DNA of 64,000 nt, taken from Acidimicrobiia bacterium. Lineage in GTDB: Bacteria; Actinomycetota; Acidimicrobiia; Acidimicrobiales; VFJN01. The notes beneath the pieces are model-generated. The model saw only the letters and a list, made by a program, of their open reading frames with translations, did no database searches and was not told the DNA's origin. Location: contig SHVB01000011.1 of the NCBI GenBank assembly GCA_009694375.1, positions 1 through 64,000 of the forward strand, given 5' to 3'. Shown here piece after piece: positions 3,916 to 15,869 of the stretch; position 1 is the first letter of the stretch; the number at the start of each line of letters is the position of its first letter. The position numbers and the translations under genes were made by a program.

Positions 3916-4649
3916 GTGACGCGCTTTGTGCACTCCGCCGATTGGCAACTGGAGATGACCCGCCACCTCCTCTCAGTGGATGCCCAGGCGCGCTTTACGG
4001 CTGCTCGCATCGATGCCATCACCGCCATCGGGCTGCTCGCCGAGGCCGCAGGCTGTTCCTTCGTGGTGATCAGTGGCGACGTGTTCGGGTCCAACCAACT
4101 TGCGCGTCAGGTACTGGTCCGCTCCCTCGATGCGATGAAGGCCACCCCAATGTCGTCTTCTACCTCCTCCCTGGCAGTCACGGCCCGCTCGACGCCGCGT
4201 CGATTTTCCGGTCGGAAACCTTCCTGGCGCACTGTCCCCCCAATGTCGTCACCCTCGATGGCGGCACCGAAATCCCCGTCGCTGAGGGCGTCACCATCGT
4301 GAGTGCACCGTGGCCGAACAAGCGGCCCCTCAGCGATCTCGTCACCGCGGCGGTCGCTCCGCTACGGGCTGATGGCACCCTCCGGGTGGCGGTGGGCCAC
4401 GGGGCCATCGACACGCTTGCGCCCAATCCAAACGACCCGGCCCTCATTGTGCTCGCCGATGTGGAGGCCAGCATCGCCGATGGCCGAATCCACTATGTCG
4501 CCCTCGGTGATCGGCATTCCACTACCGAAGCGGGGGGCACCAAGCGCGTGTGGTACGCCGGCGCTCCCGAGCGGTACAGCGATCTGGGCAACGCCACGGT
4601 CATCCAACTCCCCTCCGGCTCCGTCGCTCTTGCAGAGACCCGCCGGTGA
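3916..4649 (+). pseudogene. SbcD-like metallophosphoesterase, frameshifted
   Basis: The first ~75 codons, from the GTG at 3916, read 'VTRFVHSADWQLEMTR' and 'FVVISGDVFGSNQLARQVL', which are phosphoesterase motifs I and II of the SbcD/Mre11-type DNA-repair nucleases. After 'SLDAMK' (about 4140) the reading moves to another frame and continues with 'PNVVFYLLPGSHGPLDAASI', then 'LRVAVGHGAID' and 'IHYVALGDRHST', and ends at the TGA 4647-4649. The expected motif III is GNHDPLD, so here both the Asn and the metal-binding Asp are replaced (Ser, Gly), each explicable by one A-to-G change. A frameshift plus loss of the catalytic motif argues for real decay. It lies 25 bp before the nuclease-helicase gene, its likely former operon partner. 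Confidence 0.7.
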
Positions 4650-4674
4650 CGACCCCACACCAACCGGAGTCCTG

Positions 4675-7600
4675 ATGGATAACCCCAACGGGATACTGGT
4701 GGTGAACGCCTCTGACCTGGTGGGCCACCTCGCCTGCGGCCACCTCACCGAATTGAACCTCAAGGTCCTCGCCGACTCCCGCCGCGCCCCCCTTCGCGCC
4801 GACCCCGACCTCGACTTGCTGCAACAACGCGGCCTCGCCCACGAAGCCGCCTACCTCGCCCACCTACACGCCGAGGGATTGGGGGTGGTGGAGATCGCCG
4901 AACCCACCCAGAACCCCGACCACCTCGCCGCACTGCGCGAACGCGAGGCCGCCACCGTGGCGGCGATGAGGGACGGCGCCGACGTGGTCTTCCAGGGAAC
5001 CTTCCTCGACGACACCGCAACGGTGGCATGGCGCGGGCACGTCGACTTCCTCCGCCGAGTGGAGCGACCGAGTGATCTCGGCGCGTTCGGCTACGAACCG
5101 GAAGACACCAAACTCGCCCGTCACGTGAAACCTTCCGCGGTCCTGCAGTTGTGCCACTACGCCGAACAGGTGGAACGCATCCAGGGCGTGGCCGCCCAAC
5201 ACATCCATGTGGTGCTCGGTGGCCAGAACCGCGAGACGATTCGCCTCGCCGACGTGGCCGCCTACTACCGAGCCGCCCGGGAGCGGTTTCTGCGGGCACT
5301 GGCGGAAGCCCGGGTCACCTATCCGCTTCCGGTCAGCCATTGCGACGTGTGCCGTTGGATCGAGGTGTGTGAGACGCGTTGGCACACCGACGATCACCTC
5401 TCGGGCGTGGCCGGGCTCCGCAACGAGCAAGCCCGCCGCCTCGAGGCCGCCGGCATCACCACCGGGGCGGCGTTAGCGGCGAGCCCCGTGGGCCTGCGCA
5501 TCGCCGGCATCGGCGTGGGCACCCTGGCCCGATTGCAGCAGCAGGCCCGCCTACAGGCCGCCCGCGTCGAGGGCCAGCCGCCTCCGGTGGAACTGGCGCG
5601 GCCGCTCGAGCCAGCGCGCGGCCTCGCTCTGTTGCCCACTCCCAACCCCGGCGATTTGTACTACGACATCGAAGGCGACCCCTTCGTGGGGCACGGCGGA
5701 ATCGAATACCTCCACGGGATCGCCACGATCCAGAACGATGCCCTCGCGTTCCAACCGTTCTGGGGCCACGACCCCGCCGGAGAACGCCATGCCTTCGAAC
5801 AACTCGTGGACTTCATTGTTGAGCGCCGTCGTCTTTCTCCGAACCTGCACGTGTACCACTACGCCCCCTACGAGATCACCGCTTTGCGCAAGCTGATGGG
5901 CCGGTACGGCACCCGGGAAGCGGAAGTAGACGACCTTTTGCGCGGCAACGTGTTCGTGGACCTCTACCGGGTTGTGCGCCAGGGACTGGTGATCGGCTCG
6001 CCGTCGTATTCGCTGAAGAAACTCGAGCCGCTCTACATGCCCGCCCGCACCGGGGCGATCACGAACGCGGGCTCGAGCATCGTCGAGTACGAACGCTGGC
6101 TCCAGACCGGCGATCAGCAGATCCTCGACAACATCGAGGCCTACAACCGCGACGATGTGGAATCCACGTGGCTTCTGCACCGTTGGCTGGAAGCCCGCCG
6201 CGCCGAGGCCGTGGCGGGCGGCGACACGCTCGAACACCTCGAGATTCAGGAACAACACCAACCCGACGACGCCGGTGACCCCCGTGCTCGCGATGCGGAA
6301 GCCACCACCGCCCAACTCATCGACCAACTGCTCGACGGCATTGCCGATCCGCCCCGCAGCGGCACGGCGGCCACCGCCGTCACCAGTGATGTCACCGTGG
6401 CTGATCGGGCGGCCCGCGGGCTGATGGCGCACCTGTTGCGGTGGCACCAGCGCGAGGCCAAGCCCGCTTGGTGGAACTATTTCGATCGCGTGCAGTACAG
6501 CGACGACGCCGACCTGCGGGCCGACACCGAAGCCATCGCCGGGCTCACGGTGGTGGGCTCACCGCAACACGATGGGCAGTCGTTCATCTGGACCTACAAG
6601 TTCGACGCCGATCAGGAGCACAAACTCGACGTCGGCTCGGCGGTCCTGGATCCCGAGGTGGAGCGCCAAAACATGAGCTCGGTCGTACGGGTGCCGGGCC
6701 CGGGGAGGCTCGTGTCGCTGGATTCAGTCGACGGGCTGCTGTGCCTCCGACGCGGCGTGAACTCCATCGCTCCCCATCCCCGGGCCCTGATCCCCGGCAA
6801 GCCGATCTCTACCAATGAGCAACGAGCCTCGTTGCAGCGAGTGGCCGTTGCGCTGCTCAACCACGGTGTCCACGGCCCCGGTCCCGTGGCCGCCGGTCGG
6901 CGGCTTCTCGGTCGCCTCGCGCCCCGCATCGAGCGCCAACCGCCCGCCCAGGCCCTTCGCGCCGTCGGTGAGTCCGCCGAGGATGCCGCCGTTCGGCTGG
7001 TGGCTGGCCTAGATCAATCCCACCTGCCGATCCAGGGGCCGCCCGGCGCCGGTAAAACCTTCACCGCCGCCCAGGCTGTCGTGGCGCTCGTGGCAGCAGG
7101 CCGGACGGTGGGGATCACCGCCCACAGCCACAGCGTGATCAGTCACCTCCTCGACCGTGTGATGGATGAGGCCGCCGAACAGGGCATCAAGGTGCGGGCG
7201 ATGCAGCGCACGACAAACGGTGCCATTCGCTCCACCAGAGACGGCGTCATCGCCGCCTTCCACATCGCCGATGTGGAGCAGGCACTGGCGGCCGAAACCG
7301 TGGATGTGGTGGCCGGTACCGGCTGGCTGTTCGCTCGCCAGGCAATGGCCAACTCGGTCCACACGCTGGTGGTCGACGAAGCCGGCCAACTATCACTGGC
7401 GAATGTGATCGCCGTGGCGCCTGCCGCCGAAAACCTCGTGCTGGTGGGCGACCCCTGCCAACTGGCCCAGCCCTCCCAGGGCGTGCACCCGCTCGGCGCC
7501 GAGGCTTCGGGCCTGGATCACCTCCTGGCGGGCGAGGCCACCGTTCCCGAGCATCTCGGACTCTTCCTCGACCGCACCTGGCGTCTCCATCCCGGCATTT

Positions 7601-8196
7601 GCACCTTCATCTCCGAACAGTTCTACGACCAGCGCCTGGCGCCCAAGGATCACTGTGCCACCCGTTCAGTCGACGACGGCCCCGTAGTGGGCGGCACCGG
7701 TCTCCGCTGGGCACCAGTAGGGCACGAAGGCAACCGTGTCTCCGCCCCGGATGAAGCCGTTGCCGTGGCCCGCATCGTGGGGGAACTCCTGGGGCGCCCC
7801 TGGACCGACGAGCACGGCACCCGCCAACCCCTCACGCTGACCGACATCCTGGTGGTGGCCCCCTACAACGCTCAGGTCCGACTTCTTAGTCACACGCTCC
7901 CCCCCGGGGCGCGAGTGGGCACGGTCGACCGCTTCCAAGGCCAGGAAGCCGCCGTGGTGGTGGTGTCTCTCACGGCGTCGAGCGCCCAGGCCGTGCCCCG
8001 CGGCATGGAATTCCTCTATTCGCGGCACCGGATCAACGTGGCCGTGTCTCGGGCCCAAGCGCTCTGCATCATGGTGGGCAGCCCGGCCCTGCTCGCCGCG
8101 CCGTGCCGTAGCCTGGAACAGATGCGCCTGGTGAATGCCCTGTGCCGCTACGTCGAACTGGCCGAGGAGATTTCTCTCCCCCCGGCACCGATCTGA
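4675..8196 (+). CDS. TM0106-type RecB/Cas4-like nuclease fused to SF1 helicase
   Basis: 1173 residues; the ATG at 4675 has a GGAG about 7 bp upstream. Residues 1-240 are Cas4/RecB-like: Cys21 in 'HLACGHL', 'RGHVDFL', 'EPEDTKLA' (Asp and Lys of the PD-(D/E)XK core), and a cysteine set Cys223-X2-Cys226-X5-Cys232 suited to a 4Fe-4S cluster. From ~325 comes an RNase H-like exonuclease: 'YYDIEGDPF', 'HVYHYAPYE' and 'AYNRDDVES' (DEDD motifs). The C-terminal third is a Dna2/Nam7-type SF1 helicase with Walker A 'GPPGAGKT' (~788-795), 'VVDEAGQLS', 'GDPCQLAQPSQG', 'TVDRFQGQEA' and 'INVAVSRAQ'. It probably processes DNA ends during repair; the exact substrate is not known for the family. Confidence 0.88.
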   Translation: MDNPNGILVVNASDLVGHLACGHLTELNLKVLADSRRAPLRADPDLDLLQQRGLAHEAAYLAHLHAEGLGVVEIAEPTQNPDHLAALREREAATVAAMRDGADVVFQGTFLDDTATVAWRGHVDFLRRVERPSDLGAFGYEPEDTKLARHVKPSAVLQLCHYAEQVERIQGVAAQHIHVVLGGQNRETIRLADVAAYYRAARERFLRALAEARVTYPLPVSHCDVCRWIEVCETRWHTDDHLSGVAGLRNEQARRLEAAGITTGAALAASPVGLRIAGIGVGTLARLQQQARLQAARVEGQPPPVELARPLEPARGLALLPTPNPGDLYYDIEGDPFVGHGGIEYLHGIATIQNDALAFQPFWGHDPAGERHAFEQLVDFIVERRRLSPNLHVYHYAPYEITALRKLMGRYGTREAEVDDLLRGNVFVDLYRVVRQGLVIGSPSYSLKKLEPLYMPARTGAITNAGSSIVEYERWLQTGDQQILDNIEAYNRDDVESTWLLHRWLEARRAEAVAGGDTLEHLEIQEQHQPDDAGDPRARDAEATTAQLIDQLLDGIADPPRSGTAATAVTSDVTVADRAARGLMAHLLRWHQREAKPAWWNYFDRVQYSDDADLRADTEAIAGLTVVGSPQHDGQSFIWTYKFDADQEHKLDVGSAVLDPEVERQNMSSVVRVPGPGRLVSLDSVDGLLCLRRGVNSIAPHPRALIPGKPISTNEQRASLQRVAVALLNHGVHGPGPVAAGRRLLGRLAPRIERQPPAQALRAVGESAEDAAVRLVAGLDQSHLPIQGPPGAGKTFTAAQAVVALVAAGRTVGITAHSHSVISHLLDRVMDEAAEQGIKVRAMQRTTNGAIRSTRDGVIAAFHIADVEQALAAETVDVVAGTGWLFARQAMANSVHTLVVDEAGQLSLANVIAVAPAAENLVLVGDPCQLAQPSQGVHPLGAEASGLDHLLAGEATVPEHLGLFLDRTWRLHPGICTFISEQFYDQRLAPKDHCATRSVDDGPVVGGTGLRWAPVGHEGNRVSAPDEAVAVARIVGELLGRPWTDEHGTRQPLTLTDILVVAPYNAQVRLLSHTLPPGARVGTVDRFQGQEAAVVVVSLTASSAQAVPRGMEFLYSRHRINVAVSRAQALCIMVGSPALLAAPCRSLEQMRLVNALCRYVELAEEISLPPAPI

Positions 8197-8735: not shown

Positions 8736-9803
8736 CTAGGACTCACAGCCGATGCCGTCCTTGTCGCGTCCATCGAAGCGGTGAGGGTCCGGTGGGCGCA
8801 CCACGAAACGCCGGAAGGTGATGTCGCCGCAATCCAAGTCCGGGGGCGCCGGGGGGATGCACACCGTGGGGTAGGACGGATCGCACCCGCCTCCGGCGGC
8901 AGGGGGAGCGGCCATGGGCGCAGGAGCCGGAATGGGAACGGGCACCGGCAGGCTCGTCGGTGCTGCGGTGCCGGTGCCGCAGCCCCGCAGCATGTTGCGC
9001 AGCGCGCTGATTTCGGCCGCGTCGGCGGTGAGTTGCCACCGCGCCTTCACCGTGATCCAGTCGGCGGCGTACATGCACCACGCATTGCGGTTGGGCGGTT
9101 GCCACCGGGCCGGGTCGTCGGCCCCCTTGGACCGGTTGGTGGCCTGGGTCACCGCCACGAGGGCCCCGGGGTGGTCCAGGTCGTTGGCAAAGGCCTGACG
9201 ACGCTCCGACGACCACGTTGCTGCCCCTGATTGCCACGCCTCAAACAGCGGCACCATGTGGTCCACGTCCAATTCAGAGGCATCGTCGGTGGTATAGCGG
9301 TCGTAGATGGACAGCCAGTCGCCAGCGAGCACGAAGCAACCCACCGGATCGATCTGGGCCGGGGTGATCGATTCGGCCCGCAGTACCTCGCCACGGGTGT
9401 CGCAGCCGTTGCCGTCGGCGTCGATCCAGTGGTCGAACAGGCTCCGCTCGTAGCCGGTCTCCGGGCCCGCCGGAGCCACCGACAAGGTGGCCAGCAGGGT
9501 GTCGATGCTGAAGACCCCCAAGCCGAAGGTGGTGAGCCCGCCGGTGACGGCGGGGCGCACGGCGAACGCGCCAGGAATGGCCGGGCGCTCCGGTTCCACC
9601 GCCCTCGCTTCGGTGCTGGTGGTGCTCCTGATCCGCTCGTGGGTGGTGGTCGGGTTGGCCGGGCTAACGCTGGTGTTGCTGGGGTTGGCCTGCACGGTGC
9701 TGTCATTGCCGTTTGTGCTCAGCACCACTGCCGCCGCCACGAGCGCCACCACCGCCGCCACCGAACCCCAGATCGCTCGGGTGCGCGCTTGGGGGTCTGT
9801 CAT
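8736..9803 (-). CDS. Secreted or membrane-anchored HNH nuclease with excalibur domain
   Basis: 355 residues from the ATG at 9803 ('MTDPQ'); in-frame ATGs at 9809 and 9833 are alternatives. A hydrophobic segment near residues 10-30 ('IWGSVAAVVALVAAAVVLST') is a signal anchor, followed by a Ser/Thr/Pro-rich linker. The core is a DUF1524/HNH-like nuclease: 'DVDHMVPLFEAWQSGA', 'VTQATNRSKGADDPA', 'WQPPNRNAWCMYAADWI'. A Pro/Ala-rich spacer leads to a C-terminal excalibur calcium-binding motif, 'DGRDKDGIGCES'. This combination is typical of extracellular actinobacterial nucleases that act on environmental DNA or at the cell surface. Confidence 0.85.
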   Translation of the reverse strand: MTDPQARTRAIWGSVAAVVALVAAAVVLSTNGNDSTVQANPSNTSVSPANPTTTHERIRSTTSTEARAVEPERPAIPGAFAVRPAVTGGLTTFGLGVFSIDTLLATLSVAPAGPETGYERSLFDHWIDADGNGCDTRGEVLRAESITPAQIDPVGCFVLAGDWLSIYDRYTTDDASELDVDHMVPLFEAWQSGAATWSSERRQAFANDLDHPGALVAVTQATNRSKGADDPARWQPPNRNAWCMYAADWITVKARWQLTADAAEISALRNMLRGCGTGTAAPTSLPVPVPIPAPAPMAAPPAAGGGCDPSYPTVCIPPAPPDLDCGDITFRRFVVRPPDPHRFDGRDKDGIGCES

Positions 9804-9833
9804 TGCCATGCGTCCCGGCCCGGCCGGGAGCAT

Positions 9834-11174: not shown

Positions 11175-12968
11175 CTAACGGAACTCGAGGCCCTCGAAGG
11201 TACCGGTGGTGCGCCATTGCTCGAGATACTCGAAGTAGGCGCTGGCCCCCAGGGGGTAGCCCACTAACAGTTGGGCGTCTTGCGCCCGCGGCTGCCCCTC
11301 GTTGTTGTAATAGCCCGGGGTGCAGTCGGGGGAACCAAGGATGCCGAAGCCCCCCGGGCCCGAAAGGAGGAGTTCAATCCAGCTGTCCTCGGCCGCCTGG
11401 GTTACCTCCACCTCGTCATGGCCCCCCGCCAGAGCCTGAGCCACGATCAGGGCGATGGTCTGGCCCGCCTCGGTGAGGTTGTGGGGCACGTTCGAGATCA
11501 GGTTGGCTCCCTGCGTGGGCTGCACGAAAAAGGCGTTGGGAAAGCCATGCACATGGGTTCCGTGCATCGTGCGCATGCCATCGGCCCAATAGTCCGAGAG
11601 CCGGAGGCCATCGCGACCGATGATGTCGTAGCCGGCCCGACGGGTGTGGTCGCGACCCACCTCGAAACCCGAGGCGTAAATGATGCAGTCCACCGGATAT
11701 TCCACCCCGCTCACCACCACGCCGCCGGCGGTGATGCGCTCCACACCCTGGCCGTCGGTGTCGAGCAGGTGGGTGCCGGGCTCGTTGAAGGCGGCGAGAT
11801 AGTCGTCGTGAAAGCACGGCCGCTTGCACAATTGTCCGTACCAGGCCTTCAGCTGCTGGGCGGTTTCCGGATCCTGCACGATCTCGTCCACCCGGTTGCG
11901 AATTTCGCTCATCTTCTCGAAGTCGGAGTCTTCGTAGGCCGCCAGCATTCCCTCGGGGGTGAACTCCTCGGCGGGAAGGCTCATCATCTTGCTGCGCACG
12001 CGGCGGGCGAGGTCGGTCCATCCGTCCATCACGAGGTCCTCCTCCACCATGCCGCCGGTCTGGTTGGCGGTGAAGTTGTGGAGCCAACGGTCTTGCCATC
12101 CAGGGGTGTTGATGGTGGCGAACCATGCCGGATCGATCGGGTGGTTGGCCCTTACATCCACCGACGATGGCGTGCGCTGGACCACCCGCAGCTCCCGGCA
12201 CGCCTTGGCCAGGTGGGGGACACACTGCACGGAGGTGGCGCCGGTGCCGATGATCGCCACTCGCTGGTCGGCCAAGTTGGTCATCAGGGAACCGGAAGGA
12301 TCGCCGCCGGTGTAGTCGTAGTCCCACCGGCTGGTATGGAACGAGTGGCCCTCGAAGTCTTCGATGCCGGGGATGCCGGGCAGTTTGGGAACGTGCAGCG
12401 GGCCAGTGCCCATACCGAGGAACTGGGCGGTGAAGTCGTCGTCGCGATTGGTGCGGATGATCCACACGGAACGCTCGCCATCCCACTCCACGTGGGTGAC
12501 CTCGGTATGGAAGAGCGAGTTGCCGTAGAGGTTGAACTGGGTGCCGATCCGCTGGCAGTGCTCGAGGATCTCCGGGCCGTGGGCGTACTTCTCGGTGGGC
12601 ATGTGCCCGGTGGCCTCAAGAAGGGGCAGGTAGACGAAACTGGCCGTGTCGCACTGCGCTCCGGGGTAACGATTCCAGTACCACGTGCCGCCGAAGTCGC
12701 CGCCTTTCTCGATGATGCGCACGTCCCCGACGCCCGCTTCGGTGAGCCGCGCCCCCGTCACCAAGCCGGCGAAGCCTCCACCGATGAAGGCCACGGTTAC
12801 GTGGTCCGTGCGGGGGGCTCGCGGCACCAATGGCATGTACGGGTCCTGGGCGTAGTGGGCCAGTTGGCCCTTCAGTTCCAGATACTGATCGTTACCATCG
12901 GGGCGACGGCGCTTGTCTCGCTCCAGGGCGTACTTCTGCCTGAGGGCTTCCTTCTCCAGCGCAGCCAT
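11175..12968 (-). CDS. Baeyer-Villiger-type flavin monooxygenase
   Basis: 597 residues from the ATG at 12968; the open frame extends further upstream but crosses the divergent helicase gene. An N-terminal extension of ~55 residues precedes the FAD Rossmann motif 'VAFIGGGFAGLVTG' and 'GGDFGGTWYWNRYPG'. The BVMO fingerprint FxGxxxHxxxW appears as 'FEGHSFHTSRWD' (residues ~205-216), followed by the NADPH-binding 'VAIIGTGATSVQ'. These enzymes insert oxygen into ketones using FAD and NADPH; the ketone here is unknown. It is divergent from the RecQ-like gene (100 bp between starts). A second BVMO lies at 17834-19438, from a clearly different subfamily. Confidence 0.88.
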   Translation of the reverse strand: MAALEKEALRQKYALERDKRRRPDGNDQYLELKGQLAHYAQDPYMPLVPRAPRTDHVTVAFIGGGFAGLVTGARLTEAGVGDVRIIEKGGDFGGTWYWNRYPGAQCDTASFVYLPLLEATGHMPTEKYAHGPEILEHCQRIGTQFNLYGNSLFHTEVTHVEWDGERSVWIIRTNRDDDFTAQFLGMGTGPLHVPKLPGIPGIEDFEGHSFHTSRWDYDYTGGDPSGSLMTNLADQRVAIIGTGATSVQCVPHLAKACRELRVVQRTPSSVDVRANHPIDPAWFATINTPGWQDRWLHNFTANQTGGMVEEDLVMDGWTDLARRVRSKMMSLPAEEFTPEGMLAAYEDSDFEKMSEIRNRVDEIVQDPETAQQLKAWYGQLCKRPCFHDDYLAAFNEPGTHLLDTDGQGVERITAGGVVVSGVEYPVDCIIYASGFEVGRDHTRRAGYDIIGRDGLRLSDYWADGMRTMHGTHVHGFPNAFFVQPTQGANLISNVPHNLTEAGQTIALIVAQALAGGHDEVEVTQAAEDSWIELLLSGPGGFGILGSPDCTPGYYNNEGQPRAQDAQLLVGYPLGASAYFEYLEQWRTTGTFEGLEFR

Positions 12969-13068
12969 AGGGGGAGTCAAGACGGTTTTTAGCCGGACAG
13001 TCAAGAAGCCAGTGGCCGTGGTGCGACGGCCCAGGGAGACGGTAAAGCCGTTATCTAGGCTAGGGGCC

Positions 13069-15126
13069 GTGACCGTGGCCGCTCCCGCCCTGGCTTTGCT
13101 GCAGCAACTCACGGGCAACCCCGATGCCACCTTCCGCGATGGGCAACTGGAGGCGATCACGCGCCTGGTGGAGGCGCATGGCCGCACCCTGGTGGTGCAG
13201 CGCACCGGATGGGGTAAGAGCGCGGTGTACTTCATCGCCACGCGGTTGTTGCGTGATGCCGGGGCCGGGCCCACGGTGCTCGTATCCCCGTTGCTGGCCC
13301 TCATGCGCAACCAGTTAGCGGCGGCTGAACGCGCCGGGGTGACCGCCGTCACGATCAACAGTTCTAACCAGGACGATTGGCCGGCCATCGAAGACCAGAT
13401 CCGCACCGGGGTGATTGACCTCGTTCTCATCTCTCCGGAGCGGTTACAGAACGAGCGTTTCCGTGACGACGTCCTCCCACAACTCATCGCCGAACTTGGC
13501 CTGTTGGTGGTCGACGAGGCCCACTGCATCAGCGATTGGGGTCACGACTTCCGGCCCGACTACCGCCGCATTGCGCAGGTGCTCGCCGCTCTGCCGGCCG
13601 AGGTTCCTGTGCTGTGCACCACCGCCACCGCCAATGACCGGGTGATCGCCGACGTCGTGGCTCAACTCGGTGATTCTCTCGACGTACAGCGTGGCCCCCT
13701 CGATCGCGAGTCGCTCCGGCTGGCGGTGGTGGATCTTCCCGCCCCCGCTGATCGTCTGGCGTGGCTGGCCACCGTGGTCCCCGATCTCCCCGGCTCGGGG
13801 ATCATCTATTGCCTCACCATCAACGACACCCGGCGGGTGGCTGAGTGGCTCCGGGCCCAGGGAATAGATGGGCGGGCCTACAGCGGAAGCGACGATCCCG
13901 CCGTGCGCGTTGGCCTCGAAGATGCTCTCCTGCGCAACGAAGTGAAGGCGTTGGTGGCCACTTCGGCATTGGGTATGGGGTTCGACAAGCCGGACTTGGG
14001 CTTCGTGATCCATTACCAGTCGCCCGGTTCGCCGATCGCCTATTACCAGCAGGTGGGCCGGGCCGGTCGCGCCCTCGACGAGGCCTTTGGCGTGCTGTTA
14101 CGCGGGCGCGAAGACCGAGACATCCACGATCACTTCATCGTTACTGCCTTCCCGGATCAGGCGCAGACGGAGGCAGTGATGGAGCAGTTGTCTTCGGCCT
14201 CTGGCTCGCGCTCGATCGCTGAAATTGAAGCGGCCGTGAACCTGCCGCGCGGCCGGCTCACCCTGTTGCTCAAAGTGCTGGAGGTAGACGGCGCGGTGGC
14301 CCGCGCCGGTGGTCGCTGGCGGCGCACCGCTGAGCCCTGGGCCTACGACGGCGACCGAGTGAGGCGCGTCACAGCCCACCGCCGCCAGGAGCAGGCCGCC
14401 ATGGCGTCCTACGCGGCGTCCTGGTCATGTCGGATGGTGCAGTTGCGTCAACAACTCGACGACCCGGCTGCGACGCCCTGTGGCCGGTGCGATGTGTGCG
14501 CAGGGACGGGGTGGGATGTGGAGTTACCGGTGGCCCTGGTGGCCGCTGCCATTACGCACCTTCGTCGCGGTGATCAGGTGCTCGAGCCCCGAGCCCGCTG
14601 GGCCGGTGGCGCGCCCGGCCTGCCGTCGGGAAACATTGCTGCTGCCGAACGCCTCTTACCGGGGCGAATACTCGCTTCAGAAGGCGACGGGGGATGGGGA
14701 ACGGTGGTGCGCGAGGCGCGCGCCAGCGGCGTGGCCCCGATCGAACTGCTGCAGGCGGCCGAGGAACTCATCCGGCGCTGGCGGCCCGATCCGTGGCCGG
14801 AATGGATCGCCTTCGTACCGTCTTTCTCCCGCACCATGTCGGCTGATCTTGCTACCGCGCTGGCGGTAGTGCTCGACCTGCGGGTGCACCCGGTCCTGCG
14901 GCGGGTGGGGCCCCGGCCCCCCCAGAGCAGCATGGCCAACAGCAGCCAGCAACTCGCCAACGTGCACGATGCCTTGGTGGTCATCGGCGATGTGCCCTCG
15001 GGCCCGGTGTTGCTCGTCGACGACCTAGTGGACTCCCGCTGGACGATGACCATGGGGGGTGCGCTGCTTCGGCGGGCCGGCGCCGGCGTGGTGCATCCCT
15101 TCGCCCTCGCCCAGTGGAGAACCTGA
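13069..15126 (+). CDS. recQ: RecQ-like DNA helicase with C-terminal PRTase-like domain
   Basis: 685 residues from the GTG at 13069; the GTG at 13075 is equally possible and better spaced from AGGGG. Walker A is 'VQRTGWGKSAVYF' (~residue 46). The DEAH box is 'VVDEAHCISDWGHDFRPDY' with the RecQ aromatic-loop region. Helicase domain 2 shows 'TSALGMGFDKPDLGFVIHY' and 'YYQQVGRAGRALDEAFGV'. A cysteine cluster, 'CGRCDVCAGTGW', marks the RecQ zinc subdomain. The last ~110 residues are not HRDC: 'GPVLLVDDLVDSRWTMTMGG' is the PRPP-binding signature of type I phosphoribosyltransferases (ComF-like). It is a 3'-5' DNA helicase with an extra module whose activity is unknown. Confidence 0.88.
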   Translation: MTVAAPALALLQQLTGNPDATFRDGQLEAITRLVEAHGRTLVVQRTGWGKSAVYFIATRLLRDAGAGPTVLVSPLLALMRNQLAAAERAGVTAVTINSSNQDDWPAIEDQIRTGVIDLVLISPERLQNERFRDDVLPQLIAELGLLVVDEAHCISDWGHDFRPDYRRIAQVLAALPAEVPVLCTTATANDRVIADVVAQLGDSLDVQRGPLDRESLRLAVVDLPAPADRLAWLATVVPDLPGSGIIYCLTINDTRRVAEWLRAQGIDGRAYSGSDDPAVRVGLEDALLRNEVKALVATSALGMGFDKPDLGFVIHYQSPGSPIAYYQQVGRAGRALDEAFGVLLRGREDRDIHDHFIVTAFPDQAQTEAVMEQLSSASGSRSIAEIEAAVNLPRGRLTLLLKVLEVDGAVARAGGRWRRTAEPWAYDGDRVRRVTAHRRQEQAAMASYAASWSCRMVQLRQQLDDPAATPCGRCDVCAGTGWDVELPVALVAAAITHLRRGDQVLEPRARWAGGAPGLPSGNIAAAERLLPGRILASEGDGGWGTVVREARASGVAPIELLQAAEELIRRWRPDPWPEWIAFVPSFSRTMSADLATALAVVLDLRVHPVLRRVGPRPPQSSMANSSQQLANVHDALVVIGDVPSGPVLLVDDLVDSRWTMTMGGALLRRAGAGVVHPFALAQWRT

Positions 15127-15166
15127 CCAAACCCCCCGGCATGGTCGCAGCGGCCATACTGCGTCC

Positions 15167-15559
15167 ATGGCCGAGCGCAACGTACTGGGAGGGGAACTGG
15201 AGCCTTGCGGTACCGATCCTCTCACCGGCTTCTACCGGGATGGCTGTTGCAGTACCGGCCCCGACGACCACGGCAGCCACACGATCTGTGCGGTGGTGAG
15301 CGCAGAGTTCCTCGAACACCAGCGCCGTATCGGCAACGACTTGGCCACGCCGATGCCCCAGTACCGGTTTCCGGGCCTGGTACCCGGTGACCGGTGGTGT
15401 GTGACCGCCGCCAACTGGTTGCAGGCCCACCATGACGGTTGCGCGGCGGCGGTGGTGTTGGCGTGCACCCATGAACGGGCCTTGGAGGTGGTGCCGCTGG
15501 AGGCGCTTCGAGTCCACGCCGTGGATGTGCCGTTGGATCCCCGCGATCTCCAGGGCTGA
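15167..15559 (+). CDS. DUF2237 family protein
   Basis: 130 residues from the ATG at 15167. It begins 'ERNVLGGELEPCGTDPLTGF' and continues 'GSHTICAVVSAEFLEHQR' and 'PGDRWCVTAANWLQAH', the conserved blocks of DUF2237, a small family of unknown function with several invariant Cys, His and Trp residues. It follows the RecQ-like gene after 40 bp on the same strand and may be co-transcribed. No catalytic assignment can be made. Confidence 0.88.
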   Translation: MAERNVLGGELEPCGTDPLTGFYRDGCCSTGPDDHGSHTICAVVSAEFLEHQRRIGNDLATPMPQYRFPGLVPGDRWCVTAANWLQAHHDGCAAAVVLACTHERALEVVPLEALRVHAVDVPLDPRDLQG

Positions 15560-15575
15560 TCACCGAGACCGAGGG

Positions 15576-15869
15576 TTACGGTTCGGTCACCGACCAGCCC
15601 CGACGGCGGAGTTCGTCGGCGAGAAGATCGGTGGGCATGCCCCGCAGTGACTGCACCCGTTCTGCTTCGCGGCGATCGCGGGCGGAACGCTGCTCCAGCG
15701 ACGGATCCGCCCCGATCGGGGTTTCGCGGAGGGGGTCGGCCTGCAGGAGTTGGTCGATCAACAAGGACGCCTCGTCACGGGTGAACTGGCCGCCCGCTTG
15801 GCGCCGGGTGAGGCCGAGCGGCCCGCGGGATCGCGTAGATGTGACGAAGGGGTCAGACCCCTTCGTCAC
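15576..15869 (-). CDS. Small hypothetical protein, start inside a palindrome
   Basis: Up to 97 residues: hydrophilic and helical, with many Arg and Asp/Glu. The conserved-looking core is 'LTRRQAGGQFTRDEASLLID' followed by 'LRGMPTDLLADELRRRGW'. The only canonical start that I find upstream of this core is a GTG at 15869, inside the inverted repeat at 15838-15872, so the first ~12 residues would be repeat-encoded. Either the repeat inserted into the 5' end of an older gene and now supplies its start, or the true start is a non-canonical codon. No function recognised. It is followed by the DUF2237 gene on the opposite strand. Confidence 0.5.
   Translation of the reverse strand: MTKGSDPFVTSTRSRGPLGLTRRQAGGQFTRDEASLLIDQLLQADPLRETPIGADPSLEQRSARDRREAERVQSLRGMPTDLLADELRRRGWSVTEP

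Follow-up and report, generated by a model that had tools for sequence, protein, structure and literature searches.

An RqlH/PsyrT helicase with a predicted phosphoribosyltransferase C-terminus and no adjoining rqlI in an Acidimicrobiia genome

Described RqlH-type systems and the gene in the window

In the description by Russell and Mulvey (PMC4670107), RqlH joins a RecQ-like helicase to a C-terminal phosphoribosyltransferase (PRTase) domain, and a parallel with comF is drawn. According to that report, full-length RqlH of E. coli triggers the SOS response and arrests growth when the DprA-like protein RqlI is missing. Its genotoxicity without RqlI requires both the PRTase domain and the Asp of the PRPP loop, the PRTase alone not being sufficient, and this requirement ties the domain to DNA damage responses. 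For M. smegmatis, the same source reports an RqlH that unwinds 3′-5′ and keeps both ATPase and helicase activity without its PRTase. The helicase–PRTase was also linked with DprA and ComFC in PMC5512222, so a connection of this fusion to ComF and competence is already in print.

We analyzed a window of 64,000 nucleotides from an Acidimicrobiia bacterium (contig SHVB01000011.1). A coding sequence at 13069..15126 (+) encodes 685 aa from a GTG start with AGGGG a few bases 5′ of it. The protein has a full-length match to the PADLOC PsyrT model PDLC03928 (E 1.6e-244), in which residues 6-682 align with profile positions 7-683 of 689. The protein is also 46% identical over 682 residues to a homologue on a conjugative plasmid of E. 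coli, where a DprA-type gene matching PsyrA comes next; this RqlI-type partner is matched by the PADLOC models of ShosA as well. The window gene is RqlH/PsyrT, a known bacterial family, and its helicase–PRTase fusion is not new; the odd-looking arrangement now has a place and need not be chased as a novelty.

The RqlH proteins of M. smegmatis (MSMEG_5935) and E. coli F11 likewise combine a RecQ-like helicase, a zinc domain and a C-terminal PRTase, a likeness taken from their published descriptions, with the 46% identical plasmid homologue standing in for alignment. M. smegmatis RqlH, like the window copy, is without rqlI (PMC4670107), whereas E. coli F11 has rqlI and the window locus does not. 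The PsyrTA toxin-antitoxin and defence system differs from the window in the same respect: the window protein matches PsyrT over its full length, but no PsyrA-like gene adjoins it.

The helicase domains occupy about residues 1-350 (13069..14118, +), as placed by Pfam (DEAD at residues 25-194, E 4.4e-22; Helicase_C at 242-335, E 1.5e-13) and by the PDB matches of a full-length AlphaFold2 model (56 homologues, pLDDT 91), the best of which are RecQ cores at about 30% identity. Walker A (GWGKS, residues 47-51; 13207..13221, +) includes K50, which is kept among homologues, and Walker B (DEAHC, residues 149-153; 13513..13527, +) follows. Beyond the helicase lie four zinc cysteines, C454, C471, C474 and C477 (14428..14499, +), seen in the sequence and in a RecQ_Zn_bind match marginally below the Pfam cut-off (23.5 vs 25 bits). 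The protein exceeds the NCBIfam cut-off of a RecQ-family subfamily (230 vs 219.8 bits) but misses that of the RecQ equivalog by far (271.9 vs 640.2 bits). It thus shares its helicase core with canonical RecQ and differs from it in having a PRTase in the place of HRDC, which had no Pfam match anywhere in the protein up to E = 1. A RecQ-like ATPase core, a four-cysteine zinc site and a ComF-like PRTase instead of HRDC, three features of RqlH/PsyrT, are all found here, and the RecQ-like helicase with a PRTase-like C-terminus of the preliminary description is confirmed. Promoter- or terminator-like sites were not found in 12600-15600 of the window.

The C-terminal phosphoribosyltransferase

The preliminary description had HRDC replaced by about 110 residues. 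The replacement holds, and the length is too small: about 200 residues (486-685) follow the zinc site, the figure of about 110 covering only the PRTase core (residues 577-685; 14797..15123, +; placed by model, PDB and profile matches), and residues 486-576 (14524..14796, +) are modelled as strands and helices of the hood and align with H. pylori ComF. An AlphaFold2 model of residues 486-685 (76 homologues) reached pLDDT 95.7. Foldseek returned H. pylori ComF (7p0h, E 3.6e-5) as its top PDB match, followed by adenine PRTases and their relatives, and the ComF alignment covers residues 6-199 of the 200-residue model. In VIA-align, a second look at matches that Foldseek itself had returned, the model gave Z 14.8 against 7p0h (3.5 Å, 166 residues, 15% identity). 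ShosT (8zvc, 8zvd and 8zvb) followed as a structural match, with Z 11.6 for its PRPP-Mg-bound entry 8zvc (3.4 Å, 161 residues), but with 11% identity over the aligned part, and human APRT ranked below it with Z near 11. Residues 486-685 are thus predicted with high confidence to form a complete type I PRTase fold with both hood and PRPP loop, in agreement with what structure prediction had been expected to find.

The type I PRTase signature noticed earlier after the zinc cysteines is present as VLLVDDLVDSRWTMTMGG, starting at residue 647, and the whole PRPP loop, VLLVDDLVDSRWTMT, spans residues 647-661 (15007..15051, +) in sequence and alignment; its W658 is found in 187 of 187 aligned homologues. 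Judged by sequence, the loop has the residues expected of a type I PRTase, namely the Asp-Asp pair D651 and D652 together with S656 and T659, the Thr/Ser positions for the 5′-phosphate. D655 is intact as well. On the other side, an Arg stands where type I PRPP loops usually show Gly, and a PROSITE-type pattern fits 26 of 114 loops, the window's included. D655 was considered as a mark of the 6-oxopurine PRTases HPRT and Gpt; this candidate was dropped, since in an alignment the PRPP synthases also have Asp at that place, and D655 does not settle the substrate.

By sequence, a profile of 77 C-termini matched PRPP synthases and PurF (best E 2.2e-7). Pribosyltran (Pfam) was matched at E <= 0.01 by 61 of these 77 C-termini, the window's not among them: its own match lies below the cut-off, at E 0.14 for the whole protein and 0.027 for the C-terminus alone (14.2 vs 26.3 bits). 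In PHROGs, the C-terminus had no match. The segment also aligns with a separate ComF-like protein of the same genome (36% over 91 aa, E 1.9e-6 in a whole-genome search), and this alignment, together with the 61 Pribosyltran matches, takes the PRTase likeness beyond chance. From the modelled fold and the loop, the C-terminus probably binds PRPP or a nucleotide.

ComF itself is the closest PDB fold and shares the hood and PRTase core, but the window PRTase is fused to a helicase, lacks a separate four-cysteine finger, the RecQ zinc site lying ahead of it, and has a loop of the form DDxxDSxWT instead of DDxxTTGxT. A role in natural DNA uptake, which the preliminary description had offered beside one in repair, would draw on this fold and on the presence of ComEC, DprA and a ComF-like protein elsewhere in the genome. 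DprA and ComEC are no sign of competence, however, because E. coli, one of the control genomes, has matches to both families too. The genome's ComF-like protein carries a loop of the ordinary type, VLLIDDVATTGATL, and has comF as its best NCBIfam match (E 5.9e-15, below the curated cut-off), while the authors of the E. coli work report no transformation in their isolates (PMC4670107). We consider service in DNA uptake very improbable, and this half of the suggestion is not supported; a link of the fusion to repair or uptake is, as such, an idea already published.

Partner gene, close relatives and distribution

In the window, no RqlI-like gene was matched at E <= 1e-4, and the DprA-like downstream partner of RqlHI and PsyrTA is absent. 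The best match to an rqlI remnant in the 4 kb downstream of rqlH was at the level of chance (E 0.75). A search of the whole assembly, made for the window's genome alone, gave a single match to the DprA family, and the ComEC family likewise has a single match in the genome. With the assembly 96% complete, an rqlI may still lie elsewhere in the genome. The window RqlH is the genome's only RecQ-family match above the cut-off, and we read the helicase as the maintained function for this reason.

Our preferred reading, to which we give a probability of roughly 0.8, takes the window protein for an RqlH (PsyrT) without its partner: a RecQ-like helicase powered by ATP and joined to a PRTase of the ComF type, with PRPP or a nucleotide as the probable ligand. 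Under this reading, rqlI would have been lost in the window's lineage, the helicase would have been maintained, and the PRTase pocket would persist under weaker constraint, whether serving in sensing or regulation or already beginning to decay.

A 97% identical congener retains the loop DDLVDSRWT and a 90% identical one has DDLVNSRWT, that is, D655N; neither has rqlI in about 1.5 kb downstream. Within the family, a 59% identical relative has rqlI directly downstream and keeps the Asp-Asp and D655 triad, whereas a 57% identical one has no rqlI and the loop DDEWRSGWT. In a further homologue, L040 (59% identical), DE replaces DD. Loss of loop residues in close relatives, which the preliminary description had counted as evidence against PRPP binding, is thus seen in part, in the 90% and 57% identical copies and in L040 and not in the 97% congener. 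Only one of the four other same-family homologues is paired with rqlI, so that it takes the wider tree to favour a loss in the window's genus over a gain in the relative. In comparison with the two congeners, dN/dS was 0.13 and 0.14 for the helicase, 0.14 and 0.10 for the hood, and 0.18 and 0.29 for the PRTase core. All three parts are under purifying selection; values well below 1 mean that selection still acts on the PRTase, and "decay" could be the wrong word for the window's genus.

We then examined distribution, a survey that the preliminary description had proposed, and found rqlH across several bacterial phyla and on plasmids. Counting the window's own genome each time, matches occurred in 131 of 296 genomes of the phylum sample (E <= 1e-30, canonical RecQ included), in 87 of 395 genomes of the class (E <= 1e-100) and in five of seven of the family (E <= 1e-30), one congener and one further relative of these seven having no match at that threshold. 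The 80 named loci kept among at least 594 stretches came from Actinomycetota, Cyanobacteriota, Chloroflexota, Pseudomonadota, Gemmatimonadota, Bacteroidota and others. Matches covered at least 80% of the query in 11 of 179 plasmid records with a match, two of the 11 from one haloarchaeon; among 25 phage records with a match at E <= 1e-10, none spanned 80%.

rqlI adjoins rqlH in two named Actinomycetota loci (L041 and L044) and in five loci of the window's phylum (L006, L008, L009, L012 and L015). These seven contrast with the 2015 survey, which reported rqlI as nearly absent from Gram-positives (PMC4670107). Two RqlH copies of a single genome, L015 and L158, share a contig (G045:C10) and are separated by about 21 kb. 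The Halanaeroarchaeum plasmid pHSR2-01 (L036) encodes a full-length RqlH with the loop VLLIDDTVGSRWSFT and no DprA-type gene listed beside it.

A different reading, which we hold to be unlikely, follows the proposals made for PsyrTA and ShosTA and sees the PRTase as an active effector of defence, with the solo copy still toxic and restrained by another DprA or by its own helicase. The PADLOC assignment to PsyrT, the structural match to PRPP-bound ShosT, the intact Asp-Asp and D655, and the presence of one DprA and one ComF-like protein elsewhere in the genome are in its favour. So is the setting of plasmid relatives: on an E. coli plasmid (NZ_OX030731.1) rqlH-rqlI is flanked by the S and R subunit genes of a type I restriction-modification operon, and on an Acinetobacter plasmid (NZ_CP090068.1) the pair lies inside a BREX locus, with pglX on one side and, on the other, a DUF262 gene and then pglZ. 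The surroundings of the window gene argue the other way, with ten neighbouring proteins scanned with Pfam being mostly metabolic or without assignment and, besides weak matches, only one of seven scanned with PADLOC (4.9 kb upstream) having partial defence-like (Mokosh) matches. D655N in one congener also speaks against an active effector, and PsyrTA, when overexpressed in the assay of PMC12409345, did not detectably protect against phage.

The neighbour with the Mokosh matches (4303-8193, +) is a protein of 1297 aa with RNase_H_2 (residues 452-629) and AAA helicase domains (895-1260), and a 365 aa protein with a GmrSD_C domain is encoded at 8739-9833 (-).

Partner state and PRPP-loop conservation among homologues

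We classed 187 homologues by the presence of an RqlI-like gene just downstream: 73 were paired, 103 solo, and 11, of unknown partner state, stand outside the paired and solo counts. "Solo" denotes the lack of an RqlI-like tblastn match in at least 1000 bases downstream (mostly 1.5-5 kb) and says nothing of the rest of the genome. The 187 rows comprise 113 and 74, five of 79 later loci having been dropped as exact duplicates. Of 88 match places in the class, 30 came as loci, 49 were added, three were already in the set and six, being partial, were left out. Two loci whose open frame ends early (L046 and L111) were dropped, and one without its N-terminus (L050) was kept out of the trees and later counts.

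The loop Asp-Asp was kept in all 73 paired copies vs 93 of 103 solo copies, and the full triad of Asp-Asp and D655 in 68 of 73 vs 57 of 103, D655 being gone in five paired rows. Among the 11 rows of unknown state, Asp-Asp was missing in three (L187, L194 and L195) and the full triad in six. K50 of Walker A was present in 102 of the 103 solo rows; of the 73 paired rows, 69 have it and the other four show a gap. Mean pairwise identity, from up to 600 random pairs per group, was 0.52 for paired vs 0.41 for solo copies in the PRTase core, and 0.605 vs 0.613 in the helicase.

With relatedness ignored, Fisher's test of triad against partner gave p = 0.0016, 4.5e-5 and 1.3e-8 in successive sets, and that of Asp-Asp p = 0.0056. 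Independent-pairs tests were not significant, either for the triad (median p 0.25, range 0.25-1, and 0.375, range 0.03-1, in two sets) or for Asp-Asp (median p 1). On the helicase tree, parsimony placed 14 changes from paired to solo and two from solo to paired, with ambiguity assigned to paired. All seven inferred Asp-Asp losses fell on solo branches, which make up 53% of the tree length (p = 0.012), as did 16 of 21 inferred triad losses (p = 0.026), both in a post hoc branch-length test that used a quick tree and parsimony and gave unknown rows the state of their neighbours. From these sequence comparisons, partner presence and PRPP-loop conservation appear associated, which we offer as a lead and a modest addition. 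Against it stand the independent-pairs tests, the five paired rows without D655, and the view of the 2015 authors, who saw nothing major in sequence to set solo RqlH apart from paired RqlH (PMC4670107). The link points to a PRTase activity that matters when RqlI is present, a role left open in the literature cited here.

In several solo lineages the loop residues are gone and K50, D149 and E150 are retained. This pattern weighs against the PRTase acting purely as a sensor, one that would respond to PRPP or a nucleotide and adjust the helicase during DNA repair without catalysing a reaction, as does the dispensability of the domain for the M. smegmatis activities. Such a sensor has precedents: H. 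pylori ComFC uses the same site to bind PRPP and AMP, and the authors of that work do not decide between enzyme and regulator, citing PurR and PyrR as precedents for regulation (PMC9005727). We rate this role as doubtful, on a level with the defence effector.

Extending our preferred reading of a partnerless RqlH to the family, we tentatively suggest, at somewhat less than even odds, that the PRTase pocket is a dangerous activity strictly conserved only with RqlI adjacent, and that after loss of rqlI the pocket relaxes or dies repeatedly and the helicase is kept. If so, the window's genus would have been caught after partner loss, with the pocket present and one congener already D655N. There would then be two functional states of RqlH, and the toxin hypothesis could be tested directly on pockets that are naturally intact or dead.

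The zinc cysteines C471 and C474 were kept in 103 of 103 solo copies and were missing in eight of the 73 paired ones (L038, L068, L073, L089, L101, L106, L114 and L177), seven of which fall in one clade.
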